Part shown: positions 9,995 to 53,231 of the stretch, in pieces
How the letters are laid out: every line of letters begins with the position of its first letter
Position numbering within the stretch: the stretch's first letter is position 1
From: Crossaster papposus
Taxonomy: Eukaryota; Echinodermata; Asteroidea; Velatida; Solasteridae
NCBI GenBank assembly: GCA_037893245.1
Contig: JBAIAA010000400.1
Location: 62,001-126,000 of the forward strand
Direction of reading: 5' to 3'
Length of the DNA: 64,000 nt
Notes under the pieces: model-generated
The model's database searches: none
Told to the model about the DNA's origin: nothing
Seen by the model: only the letters and a program-made list of their open reading frames with translations
Translations under genes and position numbers: made by a program

Positions 9995-10110
9995 TAATTC
10001 TTCCAAAGAATCGAACAATGCTGGGTACAGCCTACGAACTCCAAAATCAACCAACATTTCTTTTTTTGCCATTTAACGTCAAAATCTGCCCAAAACTGCC
10101 AGGCTAATTT

Positions 10111-10350
10111 GGGAGGATTTGGGAGGATTTGGGAGGATTTGGGAGGATGTGGGAGGATGTGGGAGGATCTGGGAGGATCTGGGAGGATCTGGGAGGATCT
10201 GGGAGGATCTGGGAGGATCTGGGAGGATCTGGGAGGATCTGGGAGGATCTGGGAGGATCTGGGAGGATCTGGGAGGATCTGGGAGGATCTGGGAGGATCT
10301 GGGAGGATCTGGGAGGATCTGGGAGGATCTGGGAGGATCTGGGAGGATCT
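10111..10350. repeat. 10-bp minisatellite, 24 units, intron 19
   Basis: Same array: 3 TT, 2 GT and 19 CT units in that order. Confidence 0.95.
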
Positions 10351-11413
10351 GGGAGGGTTTGGAGTTAATGATGAGTGATTCATTAACCGTCTCCTAGGAT
10401 TGTGACGCTGTGGAAGGAGAGCCTGGGTAAAATCAACAAGAAGGCTGCCGAGGCGTTAGCTGACCCCACCCAATACGAGAACCTGTTTGTGGGTCTCAAG
10501 GAGGCATTCAAGGGGGAGGACTACCTGAAGACTACCGAGAAGAGATACCCGGCAAAGGCCTACCCTAAGATCCCAGTAAGTCATGATCCAGATAGCATGA
10601 TTTCTTAATTAGTAATATTAAAAACGGATTTTTGTCTCACCAGAACTTGTCTCAGGTTGTACATGCATGGTTGTACATGTATGTGTCATTTTGTTTAAAG
10701 TTTCGACAAATTAGTCTTATATATGCAAAGTTAAAGTCTAATTCAAATCAAACTTGTATCATTGATGAATTAGTGTAACCTTCATATCATGGTTGTGTTA
10801 AAGGTCAAAGAACTGAGGTCATTTGAAGTCGAGTTCTAAAATAGGCTTGAATTGTCAAATTCTTTGAATTCGTTGGATTTTCCTTATTTTAATTTTGTTT
10901 TCTCCTTCGCTTCATTCAGAGCAACTCTGAACGAAATGTCTTGGAAGAAATGAAGGAGGCGGCAGCAAGTGGAACATTCACGGAGGTAAGAAAAAAACCG
11001 GAAAGAATGCCGCCATATCCTGCCGCCACTTTTTTGAAGAAACAAGTGGCGTCGGGGTACAACATTCTTCAACAAAATTATGTTATTAATTTGCAGTCTA
11101 TACCCAGATAATGGCATTAGTACAAGACCCTTGTTAACTATTAAAAACAAAATGCCAAGTAGGTTCATGTAACGTGTTCTTACAATTTCAGGACCAAGCA
11201 ATCCTGGAGGATCCAGCGATATCCGAACCAACACAGGACTCACCAGCACCAGAGCCAGCCGCGACAACGAGCCAACCTCCGGCAGAGGCCGAACCGACAC
11301 CCCCGCCCACCCACACCCCCGACGATGACCTAGACCTTGACTTGGATGACTTGAACATCGATGATAACCTCGACACGGGGGACGTCAATTTGGACGATTT
11401 TTTAGATGACTAG

Positions 11414-14227: not shown

Positions 14228-14230
14228 ATG
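14191..14230 (+). promoter_or_regulatory. ACGTCA/CRE-type motif next to COPB2 exon 1, locus 1
   Basis: TGACACGTCA (14191-14200) is the partly palindromic site bound by the CREB3/CrebA/ATF6 bZIP family, which activates secretory-pathway genes. A second CACGTC lies at 14211-14216. They sit in a CpG-containing stretch just upstream of an ATG (14228-14230) that has A at -3 and a GTGAGG donor directly after it. This supports a promoter or 5' UTR for COPB2 here. The start site of transcription is not determined. Confidence 0.5.
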
Positions 14231-17200
14231 GTGAGGGAAAACTTCGTTTAAATGCGATGAAAATGTCGGTTTTTTGTTTGCGTTTAGAGTTCCAAAACTT
14301 GTGTAGAGTTTGGTTAAAAAAGATATAAGTTATTTCATATTTCTAAACCTCTATTTTTATAATTATTTAGTTGATCGATAAGCACATGTATTCGCATTTT
14401 TGTATCACTGACACTGTGGAGACATGGCTTTGTTCTCGTGTACAAAATGGTTAGAAAGTCGAGCACGTTTTTCAAAATGCTCCCATTTTAACCATAATTT
14501 TTTTCCTGGGTTGAAATTTCGACCTAATATACCCTATATTATACCCTAACCCAAACACTAACCCTAACCCACATCCTAATCCTAGTTTTTGAGTAATTTA
14601 AGTAAAATCCAAAAATCTAATTCGTGAAATTCCCAATGGAGACCTATTCATCTATAGAAATTTACCCTCCGGAGACGTTTTGTCTCCATTGTACACATTG
14701 TGTTCATGTCTCCAGAGGGTACCGTATTTCGGAACATACATTGGAAAGTCGTGTATTTCGGACATATGCATGAATTTATTTGCCGTGCAAAGGTTGAACT
14801 TTTTGAGATATACAAATTAGATTTGGTAACATCAAAAAGTGAATAAAAGTATACCCAGCTGTACAGTGGCATTTTTATAATTGTCATGATTGTTGTTTCA
14901 ACTTTCACAGGATTATATTTACTTTTATTAGGCTAAATAGAAATTTTTTAAAGTTTATCGTCCGGGGAGGTTTATTTTTTTTAAGTTGGCAATGGTGGCA
15001 GATGGATTCTAAAATTTTCTTGACATTTGTGCCCAGATAAGCCTTAAAATATATTCTAGATTTGCATACAGAGCTTTTATTGATATTGGCATCAATTTGG
15101 CTGAAAGAAAAAATTTGGCTGAAAGAATAAATTTGGCTGAATTGACAAAAGGACTAAACTAAATTGTAAACAAAAAGGGGGGGGGGGTGATGAGAAACAG
15201 AGTTTATTAGAAAGAATGTAGGAACCATGGCCACTTTGGTTGTGTACAAAGTCTATGGTGAGTTGAGTGTATTTCTAAACTATTTTCGAATGTTTTTATT
15301 TTTTTGTTGAAAATTAAGTTTTTGTATTCTTTATTGTTTCTTGAGAGAATATATGTCAGAATGCAACAGTCTTTGCATTTGCAGTTTAATTATTAATTTT
15401 GAACAAGAACATTCACTAGTACTAGTAATATTGTCCGATAAGAAACTGTTTTAATTGTTTACTTTGCCTTGGGTGTCAATTTGTTAACAATTGTAAACAT
15501 ATTTATTATTTTTTATATTTTCTTTCAGCCTCTCAGACTTGATATAAAGGTAAGAAAGTGCATTTGTCTGTCATTTAAAATGCAGAACTGTGTGAATATA
15601 TAATTGGCATTTTTAGAACAATGGGCATAGATCTAGAATGAAAATTTGGAAGTCGCAATACTGTGCACGGAAGTCCCAAAACTTAAGTTATTAAAAACAT
15701 GTAGCACAAGAAAATTACTTCCCATGAAACAACAAGTTCAACATGCCTTTAGTGCTGAGTCAGTAAACTGTGTCAAATGAAAATTATAGAAATTTTGCCA
15801 GCTAAAGAGTGAATAAAGTTGATCTGAATTTAGTATTTTGGATGTCTTTCAGCACTATCTTGCATAGATTATCCCATCTGCATCTTAAACCTAATAGTTG
15901 TCTGACATAGCCTAAATATGTTGAATGTAAATAAGAATTTTGGGGTTTAATTTTGGGTTTAATTTGCTTCACTTACAGCGGAGACTGTCGGCACGGTCCG
16001 ATCCTGTCAAGAGTGTCGACCTCCACCCTACGGAGCCATGGATGCTTGCCAGCTTGTACAATGGAAACGTTCACGTCTGGAACCACGAGTCGCAGGTCAG
16101 TTCAGGGTCAAAGGTCACATGAGGTCATCCAGTTGCACCAGATCAATGTCAGTTTTTGCAAATTTATATCTGATGATGATTGTGTTGTTTTGGAGCAATT
16201 TTATAATACAGGGCCCACTCACAACTTTCGACTTTATTTACCCTAGGACATAAAATGAACTGACCCTGACCCTAACCCTAACCCTGTATACCCCAATACC
16301 CATAAAATACAGGGCCACTTCATTCTATTTCATAGGGTAAATAAAACCAAGAATTGTGAGTGGGCCCTGCATGGGCCCTGCATTCTATAGTAAAGCTGTT
16401 TTTATTTTGTTTTTACAGACCCTGGTCAAGTCATTTGAAGTTTGTGACTTGCCCGTCCGAGCCGCAAGGTTTGTCCCCCGCAAGAACTGGGTTGTGGCTG
16501 GTTCAGTAAGTAAAGTGTGAATTAACTTAAACTTAAAAAGACAAATTGTCCTTGAAGTAGATGATGTATATTTGACCCAAATCCCCTTCACGGTATGAAT
16601 AGCTTATTCCTTAACTTCTGTTTGTCGTCTTTTGACTCGCAGGATGATATGCAGATCAGGGTCTTCAACTATAACACATTGGAGCGAGTTCATGTCTTTG
16701 AGGCTCATTCCGATTACATTAGGTCCATCTGTGTCCATCCTACACAGCCATACATACTCACTAGCAGCGGTGAGTCACTAGTCTCATATAATAATAATAA
16801 TAACTTTACTAACGACCACAATAGGTCGACACTTCCATAGGATTGTGTACAAAACTGACCCTGAACTAGCCCTATCCGTTGTACCCTAACCTAACTCAAG
16901 CCCTAGCCCTGGACTAGCCCTAGCCATTATACCCTAACGTAGCCCTAGCCATTAATTGTTGAGAAAAAGGCCTTGGAAGTTTTGTGTTCTGTACATGTAA
17001 TTACGAAAAAATGGAACCGTTCTTTCTCAAAAACACCTTTTTACACTACATACTATTTCTTAACAAAATATTGTTAGTAGTCATACCAAAGATTACAAAT
17101 ATCAGTAAATCTGCAAATATATTTTAAAAATCCACCCATTATTCACTATTTTGTATTTTTCTCCATTGTGGCCTGAGCCCAGTTCCGTCTCATTTTGCCA

Positions 17201-20200
17201 GAACGCCTCACATTTATCAATTCAAAACTTTTTTTTTTTTTTTTCAGATGACATGTTGATCAAGCTGTGGGATTGGGATAAGAAATGGACCTGTGCCCAG
17301 GTGTTTGATGGCCACACTCACTATGTCATGCAGATTATTATCAATCCGAAGGATAACAATACTTTGCCAGTGCTTCACTGGACAGAACCGTCAAGGTAAG
17401 AACAATCTGATTCTAGGCCACGCATACCGAGGCAACTTCCCGGCAACGCGACGCGTGCCTGACCGGCACGTTCACAGTGTATGCACAGGTGTATTTCATC
17501 CAAGTGTAATTACATACAAGTACGCAACGTCTTTGTCAAAAAATTACCAAAACCTTACCAAAACACCGCTTAACCGTGACTTTAGTCAAAAATACAAGTG
17601 CCAATTTCATGCTAAATTAAGCACAACAATACATTTAAATAATAGTACAATAAAGTTTTGCTCAGTAACAGCCAAAATTCTGTGTGTTTTTCATGCTAAG
17701 CAAAAGCCAGCTGAATATCAATCACAAACAATATACGTCACGTGGAATCGTAACCGTGTTTTTGCCAAGGAATAATTTTTTGTACTTGGCAGGGTTTGAG
17801 GGTTTGAGGATTTGAGAAGATTTGAGATGGTTAGGGTCAATAATACAGAACTTATCCATTCGTGGCTTTAACAAATGCTTCTAGGAATCTGACCAGTTAA
17901 ACTGGCAAAAGAATAGACCTAACGATTTTTGTTTTGGTAACAGGTTTGGCAGCTTGGGTCCAGCACCCCCAACTTTACCCTGGAGGGTCATGAGAAGGGA
18001 GTGAACTGTGTGGATTACTACTGTGGAGGAGATAAGCCATACTTGGTGTCAGGAGCTGATGACAGACTGGTCAAGATATGGGATTATCAGGTCAGATAAC
18101 AAAACATAAACAAGTTTTAAAAGTTTAACCCCATCAAAGTGTTGGCTCAAGGAAAAAAAGAACTTGTACTTTGCAGTTTGTGTGCTAAAGTTGTCTTTAG
18201 TCTGGAGATAAGCATGAAGCTGGCAGCTGAAAACTTTCAGTTCAACTTTAACCAGTTGACGTCAGATGCCATGTTTACATTCAATTTTTTTTCTGAATTC
18301 AAAATGGATGACGAATAAGATAAACATGTCACAGGCAAGGCCGGAGATATCGGTCAGCAACTGGCTTGCAGGAAGCATTGCTGGAAATAACAGGGTGTGC
18401 TACCCACACATAACAGCTTGAACCCATCTCGAATCGAGGTTCGTGGAAACAAATCCCATGCCTCGAGCCCAGTCAATGTCAAAATAATCTTGGCGCAAAC
18501 TGATTAAAAATGTCTGGACTGCCCGACCGTAGATAGTAGAAACTTGCTGTGAACTCCACAGCTTTCTAAAATTCTAAAAGCAGGCGTGACTTCACTACTG
18601 CTTAAACTTGAAAAGATGCTCGCATTTTAGCATTCTCAGGCACATTCTCTCGCATTCTCAGGCAAAAAAACAACAATTGTGTTTCTTTTATTAGTTGGCT
18701 GTTAATTAAAGTACTTGACTACTCGTGATTAATTTCCTTGTGACTACTCTGGAGTGGCAAAATCCCTTACTCGCCCATCACTAATTTCATCTTCTTTTGG
18801 TCATCTTGTTTACAATTCCGTGTTTCTTTTTTTTCATAGAACAAGACGTGCGTCCAGACGCTGGAGGGCCACGCCCAGAATATCTCCTGCGTCAGCTACC
18901 ACCCAGAGCTCCCCATCATCATGACGGGATCGGAAGACGGTGAGAACCTGTAGATGTTATTTCTCTAAATGCTCAAAATTTTACGTGGAGCTGATTCGGT
19001 TGGGTGCAGAGGCGTTTTCCGTGACTTCCGAGTCTGTGTCCGAGGTTCGAGTCCGTCCCAAGCCAATAACTGGATCTGGTGTTTTTTTACGTGGAGCAGG
19101 GTCGGTTGGGTGCAGAGGCGTTTTTCTTGACTTCCAAGGCTGTGTCCGACGTTCGAGTCCGTCCCAAGCCAATAATTGATGTTTTTTTTGTTTTTTCAGG
19201 TACTGTGCGTATCTGGCATGCAAACACATATCGTCTGGAGACTACGCTGAATTACGGAATGGAAAGAGTGTGGGCCATAGCGAACATGAAGGGCAGCAAC
19301 AATATAGCACTGGGTTACGATGAAGGGAGCATCATCATCAAGGTAGGCGGACAAAGATTGAAAGCTGAGCGAATGTTCGCACCGAATGCTTCGTGACATC
19401 AAATTCATATCGCTTTCGCGTGAAGTATAAACTAGCTTTTAAGCAGTTGTTTGTGTTTGTATTTTTGACAGCTCGGTCGTGAGGAGCCAGCTATGTCCAT
19501 GGATTCTAGCGGCAAGATTATGTGGGCCAAGCATGCCGAGATCCAACAGGCTAATCTCAAGAGCATGGGAGGTAAGGTTCAGCTTTCAGATGTTATTTAG
19601 CGCAGCGGGCTCCGTGTGCAAACAAGATAGGGCACGTGTGCATACTGGTCTGTGTGTGTTTCGCATGAGTATGCATGAGTTATTTAGATTTTCTCTCGTC
19701 CCTCGCGAGTCCCTCACTCTTAGTCTTTCATTCTCAAGTGACAGGGTGCCTTGTGTCTGAGGAATCCTTTGTGGCCCGCCTTCCACGGGATTCTTCATTC
19801 TCAAGTCAAGTCACTATCTATTCACTATCTATGTTGAACTGATACGAAAGCCTTTCTTTGTCATTGTTCAACCACTTGTGACTGGCTTTATGAAAGAACT
19901 TGGGATTGGACTTGTGAAAAGACTTTACTCAAACTGTACATTTATTCCTGATAGCTGAAAATCAAGCAACAACATTGAGGTCAAAACCACCAAATTAAAC
20001 CTTCATAAAACGCAAACAAACAAGAAACCAAATACAACTAAACCCTTTGTTAGGCAGAAAAAAATGATAGTTTGGGAAGACGCTCTTTTTTAGTCGTGAA
20101 TCTGCGAGTGCTAGTTTCTGACTTTTTCAACATTTTCTGGGACCAGATTTGGAGATCAAGGATGGAGAGCGATTACCTCTAGCCATCAAAGACATGGGAA

Positions 20201-23200
20201 GCTGCGACGTCTATCCTCAAACTGTCTGCCACAACCCCAACGGCAGGTAAGGAAATAATAATAATTGGGGAGGCTAATATCCTTACTCGCAGCTTGTGTG
20301 CTGAATTGCGAAGGACGCGGCTACAACGTAGTCGAGTCGCTGGCACGTAAAGGCGCCTATGGCAGCCGGCCACATCGACTCATATAATGACTACGGAACA
20401 CAGCCTGAGATCGAAAGTGTTTGATTTTTCAGCTAAACATAGCAGATGGCTTGATTTTCTCTTGGTATTTATTTCACAATCTTAAAGGTAGAATACACCA
20501 TTTGCAGATATCAAAAAATAGTACTACCGAATTATTAAGAATTATCTTACTTATTGGAAAGTAAATAATGATTGTAGGCATCTAGTCAGGTCAGTTGAAC
20601 GATATTTACTATAAAATATAACCCCCAAATCCACCCATTCCTGATAATTCAAGCAATTACCAATGGGGTATCGTACCTTTAGGGTTTTTGTTCACGAATG
20701 CTGGAAAACAAGTTGAGGCAGCACTTTGTAAATTTTTTGTTTGTTTTTAGGTTTGTGGTTGTTTGTGGTGATGGAGAGTACATTATCTACACGGCAATGG
20801 CGCTCCGTAACAAGAGCTTTGGATCAGCGCTGGAGTTCATCTGGTCACATGATGCATCCGAGTAAGTTAATAGGCTGGCTGTCCGGTTAGTCCCGCCTCC
20901 TGGGGCCAATTTTCATGAAGCTGCTTAAGCAGTTCGCGCTGGGATTATTTTATTATCACCGAGCTGAGGGGCGGGATTATTTTTAACGAAACTCGATCCG
21001 AAGCGGGTTCAGGCCGATAGTGCCAGGAAGCACACCCATGTATTTCCAGCCTTGCTCGCTGCTGAAGAACATTTCCGGCCTAGCTCGCTGCTGACAGACA
21101 TTTCCGAACATGAACTTGGCGTGTTTATGCGTCATCCGTTTTGAATTTGGGGAAAACTTTGCGTTTATGTACGTCATCCGGCGCCAACTAGTTAAGCACA
21201 AAGTATTAAATATTCTAAAATTCATTTGTATTAAAAAAAAAAATGTATGTGTTTGATTTTGGTTATTCTCTGGTCACCATAGGTATGCCACCCGCGAGAG
21301 TAACACACTGGTAAAGATATTCAAGAACTTCAAGGAGAAAAAATCTTTCAAACCAGAATTTGGCGCAGAAGGTAAAATGTCTTTTTACTTCACTTGATAT
21401 TAGCAGAACAAATTAATACCCTTGAATACATTTTGAAACAGTGCCTACAAAAGTTATTATGCAAATTTATTCAAATTTATGTAGGAATTTACGGCGGAAA
21501 CCTGCTGGGTGTTCGTTCAAGCAGCGGTCTGGCATTCTACGACTGGGACACCGCGGAACTCGTCCGAAGAATCGAGATCATCCCAAGGCAGGTAGGGTCG
21601 CGTCGTTTTCTCAAAAGTTCTTCACAAGCCAGTTGCTTAAGTTCTGAGATATATTTACATGATAAGAATATTGTGCCGTCCTGGAATTATCAACTCTGGG
21701 CAAGTTCGATCAAGGACAATTTTTAAACCATAAGTTAACCATAGTTCAACTAACTCTGATCGAACTCGCGCCAGTCGACGTTGGCTGGACTAGCCTAGTC
21801 GCCTATTTGCGACCAACCTACCGCGGTTGGTCGTGCTGGTTATCAATAGCAAAAGTTTCACGGCAAAATGCAGCGGGGACCAACTATCAACCAAAAGCTG
21901 GCGGACAACTAAACTTTGCTGTGTAAAATGGCATATTTTTTTGTCCATGTTAGTTTGTGATTCTGTCACTTCTGTCACCAATGTACGATACAAATTTTGG
22001 TTATGTAAGATATCCTAAACCACGCAATCTCTATATGGTGTAATATCATGTTGAAGTATTGTTTTGCCATGAGGAGTACGATGTTTCAGCGCCACAAAGG
22101 TTTTACTGGACTAGTTCGCGTTACAACTTCATGGCACATGCACTAGGTATGTCGCAAACCAACCACTATTTCTTGATGAAACTTTCCCCCTGAATTATCA
22201 ACAAAAGTTCTTTTGACTAATGACTCGTAGTGCTGACATTTGATTGGTCCGTATTGTTGTCAGGTCTACTGGTCGGAGAGTGGCGATCTCGTCTGCATAG
22301 CAACGGACGAGTCGTATTTCATCCTAAAATTCAGCACAGACGCCGTCGCCAAGTCACAAGAGACCAACACAGGAATTACAGAAGACGGAATCGAGGAAGC
22401 TTTTGACGTGAGTGAATGATATACAGTCAAACCTTGATATAGTGGCCATCGATGGTGCCGGTTTCCTTGGCCACTATACGCAAGTGGCCACTATAGCAAG
22501 TACATGTGTCGCGACGACAAGAACTATTTTAGTCTGTGCGCTCGGTACCGTTTGTATAAAACACAAGTATGAAGTCCAGGAACCAAACAACAGGGGAGAT
22601 TTCAAAGTCAACAGAGGGCGCACTTCATTTCTGCGGCCGGAGTACACCGGTTTCACGGCAATGTAATTGTACATATTTTATTTGCAGTGGGCTATTATGG
22701 GTTGGCCACTGGCCACATTACGCAGTGGCCGCATTAGCAAGGAATGGTTATGGTATGTTTATGCAAGAATCAAACTGGGACCAAGCAAAGGTGGCCAGTG
22801 AAGCCAGGTGGCCGCTGTATCAAGGTGGCCGCAATGGCAGGTTTGACTGTAACAGACTATTCCTGCCTGTTGGTCAAACAATAAGTGTTAAGAGCATAGT
22901 AGACCTTTTATTGTACGCATATTTTTCTTGTTTGAAACGGCAAGAGTGCTTTGAATCTAAAGACGGGTGTTTGACGATTAACCTGATGAAGTTTTAGCTC
23001 TGTGAATGCTGTGTATTCCCCTAAAACAATTTTCTAGTATCTCTATTATCTGATTCCCAGACTTGTTATCATGAAACTCTATGGTTCTTGAATCTGGAGC
23101 TCATGCTTAATGGTAACACATAGCTCTCCTGTTAACCAGTTAACGAGCCGAGGCGCAGGATTATTTGTAATGAAACTTGATGTTACCGGGAAGCACACAC

Positions 23201-26200
23201 ATATATTTCCGGCCTTGCTCGCTGCTGACAGACATTTCCGGCCTTAATCGTTATGTGTTTATTCGTCATCCGTTTTGAATCTGGGAAAAAATTGTGCGTG
23301 TATATACGTCCTCCGTTGCTAACTGGGTTAGATAAACACCGGCTAAACGAACAGATGTTTTCACCGACCATGATGTAATGCCAGGCCACGCCGCTCCGTA
23401 AGATCTTAACTTGAGTCCCGTGACAAAAGGAGCCTGGTCAAACTCAGTCCCAAGCACTGGATTAGTTGCCAACTCACAAACGTACTGGGATGGGAGTCTT
23501 GATAATTTCACACTTAATTAAACTCCTATTTTGTTCAACAGGTTGTTGGCGAGATCGAGGAGATAGTCAAGACAGGTTTGTGGGTCGGCGATTGCTTCAT
23601 CTACACCAACTCACTCAACAGGCTCAACTACTACGTGGGAGGCGAGATTGTCACCATCTCGCATCTAGATAGGTGCGTGGGCTGGCAAGATTTAAGGCTG
23701 TGGTCTTTAAGATGGTCATGTTCGTACATTTGACATAGAGCGCTTAGCTGGGTGCAAAACCAAACAAGCTAAGGCTACAAATGGAGAGATTCTCGATTCT
23801 CGTTTGCTTACGAAGGAATTCTCGTTTGCTTATCGAAGGCTTAGATAGGCATACAAAAAATTGAATGGAGTTTGTGAATGTTCGACAATTTACCTTTCTT
23901 GTGGTAGGCCGTCGTGGAAATCTAAGAAAGGTTTTTAATGCATCTGTTAGTAGGGTAGAAAGGTGTCTCAAAGATTTTTTTATTTTGAACGTAAACAAGT
24001 TGTGGTACAGTCTGCAACTGTTAAGAAATTTCTTCACAGAAGAGGATTTTTTCTGGTAAACGACAATAATCCGTTCGAGAAAACAGCCTAATCGCAGATA
24101 GCCTTATAATGTCAGTACATCCTACCAAACAGTTTTAGAATTCTCTGATTTTTGTCACAGAGTGATGTATCTCCTTGGTTACATCGCCAAGGACAACCGT
24201 CTCTACCTTGGCGACAAGGAGCTCAACATCGTCAGTTACTCCATTCTCCTCTCCGTCCTGGAGTACCAGACGGCCGTCATGAGACGGGACTTTGAGACCG
24301 CGGACAAGGTCCTCCCGACCGTGCCGCGGGAACAGCGCACCCGCGTGGCTCACTTCTTGGAGAAGCAGGGCTTCAAGTCGCAGGCCCTGGCCGTGTCGTG
24401 CGATCCCGAGCACCGGTTTGAGCTGGCGTTACAACTGGGCGAGTTGAAGACGGCCTATGACTTGGCTTTGGAGTCCGAGGTACGTCGTGGTAATATGTAT
24501 GCTGACCCATTCCCGTCGTGATTTACAGTAAACTCGCGATAATTCTAAACTTGAAGCTTATCTGGAAGTTACACTTTATTCATCATGTCAAAGAGAATAG
24601 AATATTATAATTATCCCGTAACTTAAATTGCTTCGCATAAACTCAAAGACGTTTGAATTTACTGGCTTGAAAATAATGTGAGTTTATGCGAAGAAATTTG
24701 AGTTACAAAGTTGAGGTAAACAAATGTTCAAGTGTGAAACGCCGCTATTTTAAACCTTGCGTTTTGAACCCCAAAATTTGTCCAGTTGTAAAAGAAAATT
24801 GTCTTTTTGCCAACACAGGCTGAAACCAAATGGAAACAACTGGCCGAGCTGGCAACGGCCAAATGCGAGTTCCGTCTCGCCCAGGAATGCCTGCACAAGG
24901 CCCAGGACTTTGGCGGTCTTCTCCTATTGGCCAGCTGCTCGGGAGACGCGGACATGGTGGGCAAGCTTGCCGACACCGCCAATGAGAAGGACAAGAATAA
25001 CGTTGGCTTCCTGGCCTACTTCATGCAGGGAAAGTAAGCAAACCTACTTGTAGTCATTGTATTTATGTTTATAAAGTTACAGTATACCATTTATAAAGTT
25101 ACAGTATACCATTTATAAAGTTACAGTATACCATTTGTGCATTTCTATTGTTTTCGAACCAACTACTGTTGGACATTTCTAAAAAAAGAAAAATGTCCTT
25201 GCCCTAAGTTTATTTTCTTCAAAATGACAGCATGTCAGAAGGAATGATGTTGTGGACATGAGTGAGTTTCACCCAAAACTAATACTAAAAACATACAAAA
25301 GCACTACTTTTATCCTAATTTTGTCCTCCAAAGTCCTACTTTTTTCTCCCTTTTTTTAATTCTTTTTTTTTACTATTCATCTCTTTTTTAACCTCAATCT
25401 GATTGAAAGCCGCTTAATTGACTTCACTTCAGAACTCGGCAAATAAAGTAGAAGCTTTTTAAGAAAGTTATTTTGGTATCACATTTCCCCCTCAACCCTT
25501 TTCTTTCCAGAAAAACAAAAGTTAGGATTTTTAATCCTCTGATTTAAACAAATAAACTTTCTGAATAAAACCATTAACCATCTTTTTATTTGTGTAATTT
25601 GTTAGGCTTGAAGAATGCCTGGTGTTGCTGTGTAAGTCCGGTCGCTACCCAGAAGCTGCTTTCTTCGCTAGGACCTACATGCCAAGCAAAATATCCGAGT
25701 GAGTACAAAGATTGAGAAAATGCTTGCCTAGGATACACCATTTGCAGATATCAAAAAATGTTACTCCCAAAGTATTAAATAATGATTCTAGGCTTCCAGC
25801 AAAATGATTGTGCTAGATATCAAGTACCGTAATTTCCTGCGGTAAAGCCGCACGGCGGTTAAGGCGCAGGTCCCTAAAATCACCCAAAAAAAATTCAAAC
25901 GTCAACAGATAAAGCGCACTGCCGAATAAGGCGCATGCTTGAACGCACCCAGAAGAACACCAGGCGCCACCCGGTGTAGGTACATCGCCACAAAGGGGTC
26001 ATTTTGTTGCCTTAGAAGGATCCCACTATTCCAAGCAAGAATTTGCTGAGTACTTGAGTTTATCTGGCACGCAAACAATGTATGAAAACTTCAAACCAGT
26101 AGTCACAATATCGCACGAGGTTTGCCGATACATATCATGTATCACTGCAGTATAAACTGCATGCACATGTACATCACATGCAGCGATCGCGTGCATGGTA

Positions 26201-29200
26201 TCCCTAATTGCGACACCCCCTAGTCTTTTTTCCAGTCGTTGTGAATGCTCCGCGCTGTGTAGTTCGGATGGTGAATTGCATGAAGCCGGAACGTAGACGA
26301 AAAAACGTTTAGAAAAAGGCCACATAGTACGGGCCAGCTTTTTATCGCTGTTGATCGTCTTGCAGTCTTGTTTGCAAGACGATCTTAATCGCGGTATATG
26401 CAGCGCGCGTAGGCCGCCGATGCGGTAATTCGCGCGTGGTCTACGGCGTACGTTAGAGGGCGCCCCGCATCGCGAAAAACGTCTTGCAAACAAGACTACG
26501 CACGCTGCCGAGTGCTAAATCACATACATGTACGGTCGTAGGGGGATCAACACATCGCGGCATTGTTAATGGAAACACGGTCACAATGTCCGGAGAGTTG
26601 GGCTAATTGGTTGACCGCATTATTGAGTAAGATTGCGGCGTTCAAAGAATTCTTCACACAAAGACCATCACTTTGAACTCAAGCGACATCATATACGGCG
26701 CACTGAAAGATAAGGCGCGGCGATGTTTTTGTGGTCTAGAAAGTCAGATAAGCCGCGTCTTTACCGCAGGAAATTACGGTAATTCTTCCAAAGAATCGAA
26801 CAATGCTGGGTACAGCCTACGAACTCCAAAATCAACCAACATTTCTTTTTTTGCCATTTAACGTCAAAATCTGCCCAAAACTGCCAGGCTAATTTGGGAG
26901 GATTTGGGAGGATTTGGGAGGATTTGGGAGGATGTGGGAGGATGTGGGAGGATGTGGGAGGATGTGGGAGGATGTGGGAGGATCTGGGAGGATCTGGGAG
27001 GATCTGGGAGGATCTGGGAGGATCTGGGAGGATCTGGGAGGATCTGGGAGGATCTGGGAGGATCTGGGAGGATCTGGGAGGATCTGGGAGGATCTGGGAG
27101 GATCTGGGAGGGTTTGGAGTTAATGATGAGTGATTCATTAACCGTCTCCTAGGATTGTGACGCTGTGGAAGGAGAGCCTGGGTAAAATCAACAAGAAGGC
27201 TGCCGAGGCGTTAGCTGACCCCACCCAATACGAGAACCTGTTTGTGGGTCTCAAGGAGGCATTCAAGGGGGAGGACTACCTGAAGACTACCGAGAAGAGA
27301 TACCCGGCAAAGGCCTACCCTAAGATCCCAGTAAGTCATGATCCAGATAGCATGATTTCTTAATTAGTAATACTAAAAACGGATTTTTGTCTCACCAGAA
27401 CTTGTCTCAGGTTGTACATGCATTTTTGGTTATGTAAGATATCCTAAACCACGCAATCTCTATATGGTGTAATATCATGTTGAAGTATTGTTTTGCCATG
27501 AGGAGTACGATGTTTCAGCGCCACAAAGGTTTTACTGGACTAGTTCGCGTTACAACTTCATGGCACATGCACTAGGTATGTCGCAAACCAACCACTATTT
27601 CTTGATGAAACTTTCCCCCTGAATTATCAACAAAAGTTCTTTTGACTAATGACTCGTAGTGCTGACATTTGATTGGTCCGTATTGTTGTCAGGTCTACTG
27701 GTCGGAGAGTGGCGATCTCGTCTGCATAGCAACGGACGAGTCGTATTTCATCCTAAAATTCAGCACAGACGCCGTCGCCAAGTCACAAGAGACCAACACA
27801 GGAATTACAGAAGACGGAATCGAGGAAGCTTTTGACGTGAGTGAATGATATACAGTCAAACCTTGATATAGTGGCCATCGATGGTGCCGGTTTCCTTGGC
27901 CACTATACGCAAGTGGCCACTATAGCAAGTACATGTGTCGCGACGACAAGAACTATTTTAGTCTGTGCGCTCGGTACCGTTTGTATAAAACACAAGTATG
28001 AAGTCCAGGAACCAAACAACAGGGGAGATTTCAAAGTCAACAGAGGGCGCACTTCATTTCTGCGGCCGGAGTACACCGGTTTCACGGCAATGTAATTGTA
28101 CATATTTTATTTGCAGTGGGCTATTATGGGTTGGCCACTGGCCACATTACGCAGTGGCCGCATTAGCAAGGAATGGTTATGGTATGTTTATGCAAGAATC
28201 AAACTGGGACCAAGCAAAGGTGGCCAGTGAAGCCAGGTGGCCGCTGTATCAAGGTGGCCGCAATGGCAGGTTTGACTGTAACAGACTATTCCTGCCTGTT
28301 GGTCAAACAATAAGTGTTAAGAGCATAGTAGACCTTTTATTGTACGCATATTTTTCTTGTTTGAAACGGCAAGAGTGCTTTGAATCTAAAGACGGGTGTT
28401 TGACGATTAACCTGATGAAGTTTTAGCTCTGTGAATGCTGTGTATTCCCCTAAAACAATTTTCTAGTATCTCTATTATCTGATTCCCAGACTTGTTATCA
28501 TGAAACTCTATGGTTCTTGAATCTGGAGCTCATGCTTAATGGTAACACATAGCTCTCCTGTTAACCAGTTAACGAGCCGAGGCGCAGGATTATTTGTAAT
28601 GAAACTTGATGTTACCGGGAAGCACACACATATATTTCCGGCCTTGCTCGCTGCTGACAGACATTTCCGGCCTTAATCGTTATGTGTTTATTCGTCATCC
28701 GTTTTGAATCTGGGAAAAAATTGTGCGTGTATATACGTCCTCCGTTGCTAACTGGGTTAGATAAACACCGGCTAAACGAACAGATGTTTTCACCGACCAT
28801 GATGTAATGCCAGGCCACGCCGCTCCGTAAGATCTTAACTTGAGTCCCGTGACAAAAGGAGCCTGGTCAAACTCAGTCCCAAGCACTGGATTAGTTGCCA
28901 ACTCACAAACGTACTGGGATGGGAGTCTTGATAATTTCACACTTAATTAAACTCCTATTTTGTTCAACAGGTTGTTGGCGAGATCGAGGAGATAGTCAAG
29001 ACAGGTTTGTGGGTCGGCGATTGCTTCATCTACACCAACTCACTCAACAGGCTCAACTACTACGTGGGAGGCGAGATTGTCACCATCTCGCATCTAGATA
29101 GGTGCGTGGGCTGGCAAGATTTAAGGCTGTGGTCTTTAAGATGGTCATGGTCGTACATTTGACATAGAGCGCTGAGCTGGGTGCAAAACCAAACAAGCTA

Positions 29201-32200
29201 AGGCTACAAATGGAGAGATTCTCGATTCTCGTTTGCTTACGAAGGAATTCTCGTTTGCTTATCGAAGGCTTAGATAGGCATACAAAAAATTGAATGGAGT
29301 TTGTGAATGTTCGACAATTTACCTTTCTTGTGGTAGGCCGTCGTGGAAATCTAAGAAAGGTTTTTAATGCATCTGTTAGTAGGGTAGAAAGGTGTCTCAA
29401 AGATTTTTTTATTTTGAACGTAAACAAGTTGTGGTACAGTCTGCAACTGTTAAGAAATTTCTTCACAGAAGAGGATTTTTTCTGGTAAACGACAATAATC
29501 CGTTCGAGAAAACAGCCTAATCGCAGATAGCCTTATAATGTCAGTACATCCTACCAAACAGTTTTAGAATTCTCTGATTTTTGTCACAGAGTGATGTATC
29601 TCCTTGGTTACATCGCCAAGGACAACCGTCTCTACCTTGGCGACAAGGAGCTCAACATCGTCAGTTACTCCATTCTCCTCTCCGTCCTGGAGTACCAGAC
29701 GGCCGTCATGAGACGGGACTTTGAGACCGCGGACAAGGTCCTCCCGACCGTGCCGCGGGAACAGCGCACCCGCGTGGCTCACTTCTTGGAGAAGCAGGGC
29801 TTCAAGTCGCAGGCCCTGGCCGTGTCGTGCGATCCCGAGCACCGGTTTGAGCTGGCGTTACAACTGGGCGAGTTGAAGACGGCCTATGACTTGGCTTTGG
29901 AGTCCGAGGTACGTCGTGGTAATATGTATGCTGACCCATTCCCGTCGTGATTTACAGTAAACTCGCGATAATTCTAAACTTGAAGCTTATCTGGAAGTTA
30001 CACTTTATTCATCATGTCAAAGAGAATAGAATATTATAATTATCCCGTAACTTAAATTGCTTCGCATAAACTCAAAGACGTTTGAATTTACTGGCTTGAA
30101 AATAATGTGAGTTTATGCGAAGAAATTTGAGTTACAAAGTTGAGGTAAACAAATGTTCAAGTGTGAAACGCCGCTATTTTAAACCTTGCGTTTTGAACCC
30201 CAAAATTTGTCCAGTTGTAAAAGAAAATTGTCTTTTTGCCAACACAGGCTGAAACCAAATGGAAACAACTGGCCGAGCTGGCAACGGCCAAATGCGAGTT
30301 CCGTCTCGCCCAGGAATGCCTGCACAAGGCCCAGGACTTTGGCGGTCTTCTCCTATTGGCCAGCTGCTCGGGAGACGCGGACATGGTGGGCAAGCTTGCC
30401 GACACCGCCAATGAGAAGGACAAGAATAACGTTGGCTTCCTGGCCTACTTCATGCAGGGAAAGTAAGCAAACCTACTTGTAGTCATTGTATTTATGTTTA
30501 TAAAGTTACAGTATACCATTTATAAAGTTACAGTATACCATTTATAAAGTTACAGTATACCATTTGTGCATTTCTATTGTTTTCGAACCAACTACTGTTG
30601 GACATTTCTAAAAAAAGAAAAATGTCCTTGCCCTAAGTTTATTTTCTTCAAAATGACAGCATGTCAGAAGGAATGATGTTGTGGACATGAGTGAGTTTCA
30701 CCCAAAACTAATACTAAAAACATACAAAAGCACTACTTTTATCCTAATTTTGTCCTCCAAAGTCCTACTTTTTTCTCCCTTTTTTTAATTCTTTTTTTTT
30801 ACTATTCATCTCTTTTTTAACCTCAATCTGATTGAAAGCCGCTTAATTGACTTCACTTCAGAACTCGGCAAATAAAGTAGAAGCTTTTTAAGAAAGTTAT
30901 TTTGGTATCACATTTCCCCCTCAACCCTTTTCTTTCCAGAAAAACAAAAGTTAGGATTTTTAATCCTCTGATTTAAACAAATAAACTTTCTGAATAAAAC
31001 CATTAACCATCTTTTTATTTGTGTAATTTGTTAGGCTTGAAGAATGCCTGGTGTTGCTGTGTAAGTCCGGTCGCTACCCAGAAGCTGCTTTCTTCGCTAG
31101 GACCTACATGCCAAGCAAAATATCCGAGTGAGTACAAAGATTGAGAAAATGCTTGCCTAGGATACACCATTTGCAGATATCAAAAAATGTTACTCCCAAA
31201 GTATTAAATAATGATTCTAGGCTTCCAGCAAAATGATTGTGCTAGATATCAAGTACCGTAATTTCCTGCGGTAAAGCCGCACGGCGGTTAAGGCGCAGGT
31301 CCCTAAAATCACCCAAAAAAAATTCAAACGTCAACAGATAAAGCGCACTGCCGAATAAGGCGCATGCTTGAACGCACCCAGAAGAACACCAGGCGCCACC
31401 CGGTGTAGGTACATCGCCACAAAGGGGTCATTTTGTTGCCTTAGAAGGATCCCACTATTCCAAGCAAGAATTTGCTGAGTACTTGAGTTTATCTGGCACG
31501 CAAACAATGTATGAAAACTTCAAACCAGTAGTCACAATATCGCACGAGGTTTGCCGATACATATCATGTATCACTGCAGTATAAACTGCATGCACATGTA
31601 CATCACATGCAGCGATCGCGTGCATGGTATCCCTAATTGCGACACCCCCTAGTCTTTTTTCCAGTCGTTGTGAATGCTCCGCGCTGTGTAGTTCGGATGG
31701 TGAATTGCATGAAGCCGGAACGTAGACGAAAAAACGTTTAGAAAAAGGCCACATAGTACGGGCCAGCTTTTTATCGCTGTTGATCGTCTTGCAGTCTTGT
31801 TTGCAAGACGATCTTAATCGCGGTATATGCAGCGCGCGTAGGCCGCCGATGCGGTAATTCGCGCGTGGTCTACGGCGTACGTTAGAGGGCGCCCCGCATC
31901 GCGAAAAACGTCTTGCAAACAAGACTACGCACGCTGCCGAGTGCTAAATCACATACATGTACGGTCGTAGGGGGATCAACACATCGCGGCATTGTTAATG
32001 GAAACACGGTCACAATGTCCGGAGAGTTGGGCTAATTGGTTGACCGCATTATTGAGTAAGATTGCGGCGTTCAAAGAATTCTTCACACAAAGACCATCAC
32101 TTTGAACTCAAGCGACATCATATACGGCGCACTGAAAGATAAGGCGCGGCGATGTTTTTGTGGTCTAGAAAGTCAGATAAGCCGCGTCTTTACCGCAGGA

Positions 32201-33637
32201 AATTACGGTAATTCTTCCAAAGAATCGAACAATGCTGGGTACAGCCTACGAACTCCAAAATCAACCAACATTTCTTTTTTTGCCATTTAACGTCAAAATC
32301 TGCCCAAAACTGCCAGGCTAATTTGGGAGGATTTGGGAGGATTTGGGAGGATGTGGGAGGATCTGGGAGGATCTGGGAGGATCTGGGAGGATCTGGGAGG
32401 ATCTGGGAGGATCTGGGAGGATCTGGGAGGATCTGGGAGGATCTGGGAGGATCTGGGAGGATCTGGGAGGATCTGGGAGGATCTGGGAGGATCTGGGAGG
32501 ATCTGGGAGGATCTGGGAGGATCTGGGAGGATCTGGGAGGATCTGGGAGGATCTGGGAGGATCTGGGAGGATCTGGGAGGGTTTGGAGTTAATGATGAGT
32601 GATTCATTAACCGTCTCCTAGGATTGTGACGCTGTGGAAGGAGAGCCTGGGTAAAATCAACAAGAAGGCTGCCGAGGCGTTAGCTGACCCCACCCAATAC
32701 GAGAACCTGTTTGTGGGTCTCAAGGAGGCATTCAAGGGGGAGGACTACCTGAAGACTACCGAGAAGAGATACCCGGCAAAGGCCTACCCTAAGATCCCAG
32801 TAAGTCATGATCCAGATAGCATGATTTCTTAATTAGTAATACTAAAAACGGATTTTTGTCTCACCAGAACTTGTCTCAGGTTGTACATGCATGGTTGTAC
32901 ATGTATGTGTCATTTTGTTTAAAGTTTCGACAAATTAGTCTTATATATGCAAAGTTAAAGTCTAATTCAAATCAAACTTGTATCATTGATGAATTAGTGT
33001 AACCTTCATATCATGGTTGTGTTAAAGGTCAAAGAACTGAGGTCATTTGAAGTCGAGTTCTAAAATAGGCTTGAATTGTCAAATTCTTTGAATTCGTTGG
33101 ATTTTCCTTATTTTAATTTTGTTTTCTCCTTCGCTTCATTCAGAGCAACTCTGAACGAAATGTCTTGGAAGAAATGAAGGAGGCGGCAGCAAGTGGAACA
33201 TTCACGGAGGTAAGAAAAAAACCGGAAAGAATGCCGCCATATCCTGCCGCCACTTTTTTGAAGAAACAAGTGGCGTCGGGGTACAACATTCTTCAACAAA
33301 ATTATGTTATTAATTTGCAGTCTATACCCAGATAATGGCATTAGTACAAGACCCTTGTTAACTATTAAAAACAAAATGCCAAGTAGGTTCATGTAACGTG
33401 TTCTTACAATTTCAGGACCAAGCAATCCTGGAGGATCCAGCGATATCCGAACCAACACAGGACTCACCAGCACCAGAGCCAGCCGCGACAACGAGCCAAC
33501 CTCCGGCAGAGGCCGAACCGACACCCCCGCCCACCCACACCCCCGACGATGACCTAGACCTTGACTTGGATGACTTGAACATCGATGATAACCTCGACAC
33601 GGGGGACGTCAATTTGGACGATTTTTTAGATGACTAG
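14228..33637 (+). CDS. COPB2: Locus 1: COPB2, coatomer subunit beta', with internal duplication of exons 15-20 and a frameshift in exon 6
   Basis: Exons: 1 (ATG 14228-14230), 2 15529-15549, 3 15979-16095, 4 16419-16505, 5 16643-16769, 6 17248-17395, 7 17944-18090, 8 18840-18939, 9 19200-19342, 10 19472-19571, 11 20147-20246, 12 20751-20861, 13 21283-21371, 14 21485-21591, 15 22264-22407, 16 23542-23672, 17 24161-24479, 18 24819-25033, 19 25606-25698, 20 27153-27330; second set 15 27693-27836, 16 28971-29101, 17 29590-29908, 18 30248-30462, 19 31035-31127, 20 32622-32799; then 21 33144-33209 and 22 33416-33637. Exons 2-14 encode WD40 blades of two beta-propellers, 15-20 the remaining propeller and alpha-solenoid, and 21-22 a Pro/Asp-rich tail ending LDDFLDD. 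The duplicated set adds exactly 360 codons in frame. One T is missing after the ACT codon at 17361-17363, giving a TGA at 18002-18004. Exon calls are firm; a functional full-length product is doubtful. Confidence 0.85.
15098..15191. repeat. AATTTGGCTGAA triplet and poly-G tract, intron 1
   Basis: Three tandem AATTTGGCTGAA units (15098-15143) are followed by a G run of 11 (15177-15187). The G run is 13 long in locus 2 (near 37395) and 10 in locus 3 (near 54179). Confidence 0.7.
15227..15257 (+). other. Alternative first-exon candidate in intron 1, locus 1
   Basis: A second ATG directly followed by a GTGAGT donor lies at 15255-15257 and could also splice to exon 2 (15529). Its context is poor (T at -3). 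A strong ACCATGG start at 15227 in the same exon would read out of frame into exon 2 and stop after about 14 codons. I therefore prefer the ATG at 14228. Equivalent sites are at 37474-37476 and 54256-54258. Confidence 0.3.
16209..16369. repeat. Foldback element with CCCTAA-like core, intron 3, locus 1
   Basis: Perfect 16-bp inverted ends CAGGGCCCACTCACAA (16209-16224) and TTGTGAGTGGGCCCTG (16354-16369), with further weaker pairing inward (TTTACCCTA / TAGGGTAAA). The core holds short CCCTAA-type runs. It resembles a MITE; no clear target duplication was found. Copies are at 38433-38593 and 55210-55370. Confidence 0.65.
16850..16945. repeat. Degenerate CCCTAA/CCCTAGC-rich tract, intron 5
   Basis: Irregular CCCTAACC, CCCTAGCC and CCCTGGAC units just downstream of exon 5 in locus 1. 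It is equivalent to about 39074-39169 and 55851-55946. Too irregular to be a telomere remnant with confidence. Confidence 0.5.
17248..17395 (+). pseudogene. COPB2: COPB2 exon 6 with 1-bp deletion, locus 1
   Basis: The exon opens with the WD40 blade ending [11 protein letters not shown] and GHTHYVMQ. After codons for NPKDNNT it should read F-A-S-A-S-L-D-R-T, as in every beta'-COP I know. Here ACT (17361-17363) is followed by TTG instead of TTT-GCC, so one T of a four-T run is missing at 17364-17366. The +1 reading resumes the expected SASLDRTVK up to the donor at 17396, which shows that the exon borders are right and the loss is a single base. The exon is 148 nt; 149 would fit the neighbouring phases. 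Confidence 0.9.
18981..19186 (+). repeat. Tandem pair of tRNA-like SINE modules, intron 8, locus 1
   Basis: Two copies (18981 and 19087) with a 106-bp period, each starting TTACGTGGAGC. Each contains a Pol III B-box-like sequence: GGTTCGAGTCC (19044-19054) and CGTTCGAGTCC (19150-19160). About 50 bp separates it from an upstream GGTTGGGTGC stretch that could be a degraded A box. No foldable intact tRNA is evident. Confidence 0.55.
20491..20584. repeat. Dispersed repeat family 2, intron 11 member, locus 1
   Basis: Shares ATACACCATTTGCAGATATC and TAAATAATGATT in the same order with intron 19 (445-512 and its counterparts). The intron 19 member lies directly upstream of the TIR element. Confidence 0.6.
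20959..21196. repeat. Dispersed repeat family 1, intron 12 member, locus 1
   Basis: Shares segments GCTCGCTGCTGACAGACATT and GTCATCCGTTTTGAAT in the same order with a stretch of intron 15. The two are diverged copies of one interspersed element of unknown type. Counterparts are at 43183-43420 and 59960-60197. Confidence 0.65.
22424..22849. mobile_element. pogo-like MITE, intron 15, locus 1 unit A1
   Basis: Same element and site as at 2654. Confidence 0.8.
25068..25134. repeat. 22-bp tandem repeat, 3 units, intron 18
   Basis: Three units in locus 1 unit A1. Confidence 0.9.
25827..26779. mobile_element. TIR DNA element, intron 19, locus 1 unit A1
   Basis: Complete 953-bp copy with both TIRs at the same intronic site, inherited by duplication rather than by new insertion. 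Confidence 0.75.
26896..27105. repeat. 10-bp minisatellite, 21 units, intron 19
   Basis: Same array: 3 TT, 5 GT and 13 CT units in that order. Confidence 0.95.
27853..28278. mobile_element. pogo-like MITE, intron 15, locus 1 unit A2
   Basis: Same element and site as at 2654. Confidence 0.8.
30497..30563. repeat. 22-bp tandem repeat, 3 units, intron 18
   Basis: Three units in locus 1 unit A2. Confidence 0.9.
31256..32208. mobile_element. TIR DNA element, intron 19, locus 1 unit A2
   Basis: Complete 953-bp copy at the same intronic site. Confidence 0.75.
32325..32574. repeat. 10-bp minisatellite, 25 units, intron 19
   Basis: Same array: 2 TT, 1 GT and 22 CT units in that order. Confidence 0.95.
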
Positions 33638-36444: not shown

Positions 36445-36447
36445 ATG
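36408..36447 (+). promoter_or_regulatory. ACGTCA/CRE-type motif next to COPB2 exon 1, locus 2
   Basis: TGACACGTCA at 36408-36417 precedes the ATG at 36445-36447. It is identical to the locus 1 arrangement, so each copy carries its own promoter region. Confidence 0.5.
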
Positions 36448-39400
36448 GTGAGGGAAAACTTCGTTTAAATGCGATGAAAATGTCGGTTTTTTGTTTGCGT
36501 TTAGAGTTCCAAAACTTGTGTAGAGTTTGGTTAAAAAAGATATAAGTTATTTCATATTTCTAAACCTCTATTTTTATAATTATTTAGTTGATCGATAAGC
36601 ACATGTATTCGCATTTTTGTATCACTGACACTGTGGAGACATGGCTTTGTTCTCGTGTACAAAATGGTTAGAAAGTCGAGCACGTTTTTCAAAATGCTCC
36701 CATTTTAACCATAATTTTTTTCCTGGGTTGAAATTTCGACCTAATATACCCTATATTATACCCTAACCCAAACACTAACCCTAACCCACATCCTAATCCT
36801 AGTTTTTGAGTAATTTAAGTAAAATCCAAAAATCTAATTCGTGAAATTCCCAATGGAGACCTATTCATCTATAGAAATTTACCCTCCGGAGACGTTTTGT
36901 CTCCATTGTACACATTGTGTTCATGTCTCCAGAGGGTACCGTATTTCGGAACATACATTGGAAAGTCGTGTATTTCGGACATATGCATGAATTTATTTGC
37001 CGTGCAAAGGTTGAACTTTTTGAGATATACAAATTAGATTTGGTAACATCAAAAAGTGAATAAAAGTATACCCAGCTGTACAGTGGCATTTTTATAATTG
37101 TCATGATTGTTGTTTCAACTTTCACAGGATTATATTTACTTTTATTAGGCTAAATAGAAATTTTTTAAAGTTTATCGTCCGGGGAGGTTTATTTTTTTAA
37201 AGTTGGCAATGGTGGCAGATGGATTCTAAAATTTTCTTGACATTTGTGCCCAGATAAGCCTTAAAATATATTCTAGATTTGCATACAGAGCTTTTATTGA
37301 TATTGGCATCAATTTGGCTGAAAGAAAAAATTTGGCTGAAAGAATAAATTTGGCTGAATTGACAAAAGGACTAAACTAAATTGTAAACAAAAAGGGGGGG
37401 GGGGGGTGATGAGAAACAGAGTTTATTAGAAAGAATGTAGGAACCATGGCCACTTTGGTTGTGTACAAAGTCTATGGTGAGTTGAGTGTATTTCTAAACT
37501 ATTTTCGAATGTTTTTATTTTTTTGTTGAAAATTAAGTTTTTGTATTCTTTATTGTTTCTTGAGAGAATATATGTCAGAATGCAACAGTCTTTGCATTTG
37601 CAGTTTAATTATTAATTTTGAACAAGAACATTCACTAGTACTAGTAATATTGTCCGATAAGAAACTGTTTTAATTGTTTACTTTGCCTTGGGTGTCAATT
37701 TGTTAACAATTGTAAACATATTTATTATTTTTTATATTTTCTTTCAGCCTCTCAGACTTGATATAAAGGTAAGAAAGTGCATTTGTCTGTCATTTAAAAT
37801 GCAGAACTGTGTGAATATATAATTGGCATTTTTAGAACAATGGGCATAGATCTAGAATGAAAATTTGGAAGTCGCAATACTGTGCACGGAAGTCCCAAAA
37901 CTTAAGTTATTAAAAACATGTAGCACAAGAAAATTACTTCCCATGAAACAACAAGTTCAACATGCCTTTAGTGCAGTGCTGAGTCAGTAAACTGTGTCAA
38001 ATGAAAATTATAGAAATTTTGCCAGCTAAAGAGTGAATAAAGTTGATCTGAATTTAGTATTTTGGATGTCTTTCAGCACTATCTTGCATAGATTATCCCA
38101 TCTGCATCTTAAACCTAATAGTTGTCTGACATAGCCTAAATATGTTGAATGTAAATAAGAATTTTGGGGTTTAATTTTGGGTTTAATTTGCTTCACTTAC
38201 AGCGGAGACTGTCGGCACGGTCCGATCCTGTCAAGAGTGTCGACCTCCACCCTACGGAGCCATGGATGCTTGCCAGCTTGTACAATGGAAACGTTCACGT
38301 CTGGAACCACGAGTCGCAGGTCAGTTCAGGGTCAAAGGTCACATGAGGTCATCCAGTTGCACCAGATCAATGTCAGTTTTTGCAAATTTATATCTGATGA
38401 TGATTGTGTTGTTTTGGAGCAATTTTATAATACAGGGCCCACTCACAACTTTCGACTTTATTTACCCTAGGACATAAAATGAACTGACCCTGACCCTAAC
38501 CCTAACCCTGTATACCCCAATACCCATAAAATACAGGGCCACTTCATTCTATTTCATAGGGTAAATAAAACCAAGAATTGTGAGTGGGCCCTGCATGGGC
38601 CCTGCATTCTATAGTAAAGCTGTTTTTATTTTGTTTTTACAGACCCTGGTCAAGTCATTTGAAGTTTGTGACTTGCCCGTCCGAGCCGCAAGGTTTGTCC
38701 CCCGCAAGAACTGGGTTGTGGCTGGTTCAGTAAGTAAAGTGTGAATTAACTTAAACTTAAAAAGACAAATTGTCCTTGAAGTAGATGATGTATATTTGAC
38801 CCAAATCCCCTTCACGGTATGAATAGCTTATTCCTTAACTTCTGTTTGTCGTCTTTTGACTCGCAGGATGATATGCAGATCAGGGTCTTCAACTATAACA
38901 CATTGGAGCGAGTTCATGTCTTTGAGGCTCATTCCGATTACATTAGGTCCATCTGTGTCCATCCTACACAGCCATACATACTCACTAGCAGCGGTGAGTC
39001 ACTAGTCTCATATAATAATAATAATAACTTTACTAACGACCACAATAGGTCGACACTTCCATAGGATTGTGTACAAAACTGACCCTGAACTAGCCCTATC
39101 CGTTATACCCTAACCTAACTCAAGCCCTAGCCCTGGACTAGCCCTAGCCATTATACCCTAACGTAGCCCTAGCCATTAATTGTTGAGAAAAAGGCCTTGG
39201 AAGTTTTGTGTTCTGTACATGTAATTACGAAAAAATGGAACCGTTCTTTCTCAAAAACACCTTTTTACACTACATACTATTTCTTAACAAAATATTGTTA
39301 GTAGTCATACCAAAGATTACAAATATCAGTAAATCTGCAAATATATTTTAAAAATCCACCCATTATTCACTATTTTGTATTTTTCTCCATTGTGGCCTGA

Positions 39401-53228: not shown

Positions 53229-53231
53229 ATG
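53192..53231 (+). promoter_or_regulatory. ACGTCA/CRE-type motif next to COPB2 exon 1, locus 3
   Basis: TGACACGTCA at 53192-53201 precedes the ATG at 53229-53231, as in loci 1 and 2. Confidence 0.5.

Follow-up and report, generated by a model that had tools for sequence, protein, structure and literature searches.

COPB2, which encodes β′-COP, is an essential trafficking gene in animals. The kind of locus closest to the one described here is the recently inactivated duplicated pseudogene with tandem amplification; a full-text literature search found nothing that links COPB2 to tandem duplication, pseudogene and copy number. A study of the yeast protein (PMC3521961) describes R15 as part of a set of three basic residues by which the carboxylate of the dilysine motif is held. 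The same study reports that a yeast strain lacking the R15/K17/R59 patch together with the matching patch of α-COP is viable, with a slight growth defect (PMC3521961). Here we describe a tandem array of COPB2 copies in Crossaster papposus that share a disabling deletion, and an intact counterpart elsewhere in the same assembly.

Results

Organization of the tandem array

The window, meaning the whole 64,000-nucleotide stretch of DNA analysed, is part of a tandem array derived from a second copy of the β′-COP gene; all window features given below are on the forward strand. Copy 1 (14228–27330) comprises exons 1–20 and then restarts in intron 14, and a partial copy that restarts in intron 14 comprises exons 15–22 (27427–33637). 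Copy 2 (36445–50421) is the only ordered, non-repeating run of exons 1–22 in the window, and copy 3 leaves the window within exon 18. The full unit matches contig C110, which carries an intact COPB2 gene (see below), from ∼930 bp upstream of the ATG to beyond the last exon. The array is found on two contigs, with left edges at ∼C311:718009 and ∼C400:46183 and a right end on C400 that falls within exon 22, at ∼C400:209823. Counted from places matching PF04053, exon 16 is present in at least 10 copies on C311 and at least 15 on C400, and the array totals over the two contigs, 13 for the 5′ half of the gene and 25 for exon 16, are lower bounds.

Exon 1 consists of an ATG followed directly by a GTGAG donor, at 14228–14230 in copy 1 and at 36445–36447 and 53229–53231 in the other window copies. 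Its placement is based on a 20-mer search, on the starts of the motif in the window (14220, 36437 and 53221) and on a CpG profile over 9 kb of C110, in which CpG density peaks in the 500-bp stretch that contains the exon. With one mismatch allowed genome-wide, the 20-mer occurs at 13 places, corresponding to C110 and 12 array copies. C110 and 12 of the 13 array copies have an intact ATG|GTGAG; the remaining copy, the leftmost on C400, begins downstream of it. A second candidate, the ATG|GTGAGT at 15256–15258, was rejected as exon 1, being part of an interspersed repeat: its 30-mer is found at 348 places in the genome within three mismatches, including the 13 array copies and C110. The C110 sequence reads AGG at this position, and an apparent loss of the C110 start codon was likewise rejected, with the true ATG|GTGAG intact upstream. 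The repeat (15240–15270, in intron 1) mimics a first exon, and gene finders may select it as a start.

Intron 19 contains a 10-bp minisatellite (TGGGAGGATC) of about 22 to 30 repeats, depending on the copy (1616–1912, 10110–10356, 26895–27111, 32324–32580 and 49119–49364). In addition, ∼950 bp at 48050–49010, and the equivalent part of the other intron 19 copies, is unmatched in C110 and has inverted ends of the type CCGTAATTTCCTGCGGTAAAG. This segment looks like a DNA transposon insertion.

A one-base deletion shared by the array copies

The initial annotation had reported a one-base frameshift in all three window copies with complete 5′ ends, and our analysis agrees: exon 6 (starting at 17248, 39472 and 56249) is one base short in each 5′-bearing copy. 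In copy 1 (17248–17395) the exon has 148 nt, compared with 149 nt in C110, and ACT at 17361–17363 is followed by TTGCC. The deletion site (17361–17366) thus reads ACTTTG, where C110 has ACCTTTG within ACCTTTGCC; in codons, AAT ACC TTT GCC in C110 corresponds to AATACTTTGCC in the array. The annotation had taken the missing base to be a T from a run of four. The comparison with C110 points instead to a C, as the T run is three in both C110 and the array, and the base lost would most simply be one C of the CC in ACC. This is a single-step account, because loss of a T would require an additional C-to-T change, and with T runs of equal length there is no longer a basis for assuming a homopolymer error in TTTT.

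The shifted frame ends in exon 7 (17944–18090 in copy 1; starts at 17944, 40168 and 56945) at a premature TGA (18002–18004), the same stop that was identified initially. Exons 6 and 7 show zero differences among the three window copies. When copy 2 is spliced in frame, 157 residues are followed by 30 foreign ones and a stop after 187 codons, so that no open β′-COP frame is obtained from it. A search of the 1.02-Gb assembly with up to three mismatches finds the lesioned site at 13 places, all of them exact matches, and the full-length site at one place, C110. Every array site found therefore carries the lesion (13/13; 6 on C311 and 7 on C400), and a recount within the 13 loci agrees.

Further changes relative to C110 are present in the window copies. 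All three copies of exon 3 (15979–16095 in copy 1) have R17P, without variation. C110 R17 aligns with R15 of yeast β′-COP, and the dilysine-pocket arginine is thus kept in none of the three. However, since the yeast mutant lacking both patches is viable, R17P alone is no proof of lost function. The window copies also have one D codon fewer in the acidic tail. Coding differences among the window copies are limited to two, the missense K569R and the copy-specific nonsense Y823* (2117–2119, in the exon 20 copy at 1954), which are too few to show neutrality.

The copies are otherwise close to identical. Window units are 99.84–99.91% identical, with 4–8 mismatches in 11.7–13.5 kb, and the 13 loci around exon 6 have 0–5 mismatches in 2.0 kb relative to the reference locus, L021. 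The edge copies differ from the window units by 1–3 mismatches in 0.9–1.15 kb, plus 13–27 gap letters. The C311 edge copy (L039 243–246) lacks ∼345 bp of intron 1 that are present in all three window units (36604–36951). It is still lesioned, with its exon 6 site at C311:720875.

An intact COPB2 gene on C110

The COPB2 gene on C110 (C110:346274–359038, minus strand) has 22 exons and an open spliced frame of 923 amino acids with no stop, which starts at the ATG and takes in the WD40 region and the acidic tail; 21 of its 21 introns are GT-AG. Residues 2–331 of the predicted product align end to end with mammalian β′-COP (5a1u chain D, E 6.6e-211), and the same residues also align with yeast β′-COP. 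In a whole-genome search in which all 101 candidates were scored, Pfam PF04053 matches C110, C311, C400 and C425 only, the last of which we take to be probably α-COP. A protein search of the genome, with 150 of 260 candidates scored, gives strong matches on C110, C311 and C400 only; the other matches among those scored, on C77, C436, C886 and C985, are 33–39% identical. We infer that this single-copy gene supplies the essential β′-COP function.

We considered whether C110 could be an allele (haplotig) of the array, a reading that the flanks do not support. Among the 40 of 265 genomic candidates scored, the 3-kb flank upstream of the C110 gene matches nothing but itself, and the 3-kb downstream flank matches elsewhere only over ∼250-bp repeats (40 of 8005 candidates scored). 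Outside the unit, the array edges that were fetched resemble the C110 stretch in nothing but short repeats. Within the sequence compared, the flanks beyond the unit are therefore not shared, and C110 and the array do not look allelic. Between the 10-kb left flanks of the two arrays, C400:36001–46000 (L035) and C311:708001–718000 (L036), there is no match of at least 150 bp. This is compatible with two separate loci for the C311 and C400 arrays, or with haplotypes that differ in structure.

Divergence and selection

Over 921 codons, with the true exon 1, C110 and copy 2 differ by 42 synonymous and 7 nonsynonymous changes, one of the seven being the copy-specific K569R (Ks 0.073, Ka 0.0033, Ka/Ks ∼0.045). 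Intron divergence between C110 and the array is 0.0697 over 7,556 aligned nt, with badly aligned blocks omitted, so that the two have diverged by ∼7% both in introns and at synonymous sites. Neutral evolution since the split would predict ∼78 nonsynonymous changes on the array branch if the two branches took an equal share. The number fixed in the window copies is 6 (P ∼3e-26 at equal share; 5e-11 if the array branch took a quarter of the divergence, and ∼0.005 if it took a tenth). If all 6 post-date inactivation, that period would take up ∼8% of the array branch (95% upper limit, 17%). The low Ka/Ks thus indicates that the ancestor of the array was a constrained gene until recently. The few mismatches between copies indicate that their common ancestry is younger still, through either multiplication after the loss or homogenisation.

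Discussion

On the sequence evidence, the array most likely represents a family of young pseudogenes that exists alongside a functional gene. The initial annotation had named three alternatives: a functional copy elsewhere, a young pseudogene family, and a homopolymer consensus error repeated in every copy. The first is supported by the intact frame on C110 and the second holds together with it; the third finds no support, given the equal T runs, the 13/13 agreement and the full-length site on C110. The same annotation described all other exons as clean. This holds for the splice sites of the window copies and for copy 2, which has no stops in the parental frame; it does not extend to R17P, to the D codon missing from the acidic tail or to the nonsense codon at 2117–2119.

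Taken together, these data are best explained by a model in which a second copy split from the C110 gene, as reflected in ∼7% neutral divergence, and its protein remained under strong purifying selection, as the Ka/Ks shows; the assignment of changes to branches in this model is indirect. The second copy then lost one base in exon 6. The loss itself is seen directly in every site found, and it probably had a single origin. With the lesion, the product would end within the first WD40 propeller, and the array is thus expected to yield no β′-COP. Tandem and partial-unit duplication would then have produced at least 13 5′ halves and at least 25 copies of exon 16 on two contigs, an order of events proposed because the divergence between copies is low. 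The C110 gene, with its start, splice sites and frame intact, would cover the essential role. We consider this account as a whole, from a constrained second copy through base loss to tandem amplification beside a functional C110 gene, to be highly probable.

The order of loss and amplification can be read differently. The array could have been functional when it was amplified, with the lesion of one copy spreading later by gene conversion or unit turnover. Concerted evolution of this kind could yield copies that are nearly identical and a protein constrained until recently, and even the edge copies are, gaps aside, only 1–3 mismatches in 0.9–1.15 kb away from the window units. As near-identity also fits homogenisation, loss followed by amplification is not proved. 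However, no lesion-free array copy was found among the 13, which include two edge copies with breakpoints of their own, and the C311 edge copy is without the intron 1 insertion of the three window units, so that copy was not fully homogenised. We therefore regard later spread of the lesion as possible but unlikely.

The origin of the second copy can also be read differently. Instead of a long-lived paralogue, the ancestor of the array may have been a diverged allele or an introgressed copy from a related lineage, which would be compatible with the rest of the model. A neutral divergence of 7% with an almost unchanged protein fits a gene that was working in a different species or population, and the low Ka/Ks would equally fit the recent arrival of such a copy. 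The array lies away from the C110 flanks as compared, which counters a simple allele but not introgression. We give this origin only a minor share of the probability, similar to that of later spread of the lesion.

Other explanations fare considerably worse than the reading as young pseudogenes with a functional gene elsewhere. It is very doubtful that the array is kept and expressed, either as a short N-terminal fragment whose cargo pocket is broken or as an RNA that regulates C110, with amplification favoured by dosage. An assembly or base-calling error in every copy, which would leave the array encoding a working β′-COP, is very unlikely as the source of the lesion. Single-base deletions are a frequent error in long reads, and the parental frame of copy 2 is otherwise free of stops. 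Against this, all 13 sites agree even though the copies are still distinguishable elsewhere, C110 and the array have T runs of equal length, so that loss of one C from a pair is the simplest account, and the same assembly gives the full site on C110. Least credible of all is a partial rescue of transcripts by splicing at the GT at 17301: the CAG|GTGTTT at 17300/17301 would give a 53-nt exon 6 and, by count, keep the downstream frame while dropping 32 residues and the lesion, but most of one propeller blade would probably go, R17P would remain, and the same sequence in C110 exon 6 means that the site is no adaptation.

The preferred model, loss in a constrained copy followed by amplification, resolves the paradox of an essential gene that is broken in every window copy and yet intact as a single copy elsewhere. 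It also provides an example, set against neutral divergence, of a duplicate that was constrained, then broken, and that today exists as many near-identical copies. We attach moderate interest to the locus for this clear order of constraint, loss and multiplication. There is a practical consequence for annotation: work from sequence alone would wrongly count the array as many COPB2 genes, and the repeat-derived ATG could pass for the start of the array gene.

Comparison with known systems

The C110 product resembles COPB2 and yeast Sec27, with residues 2–331 aligning fully with the mammalian and yeast proteins. In contrast, the array copies have no complete frame, and those in the window further differ by R17P at the equivalent of yeast R15. 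The array copies retain their introns and a disabling lesion and have an intact gene elsewhere, which are the marks of a duplicated (non-processed) pseudogene, and the resemblance to this kind extends to the lesion being common to all and to the near-identical tandem units. The array differs from it in two respects: most of its divergence accumulated under constraint, before inactivation, and its 5′ half occurs at least 13 times, with full and partial copies mixed.
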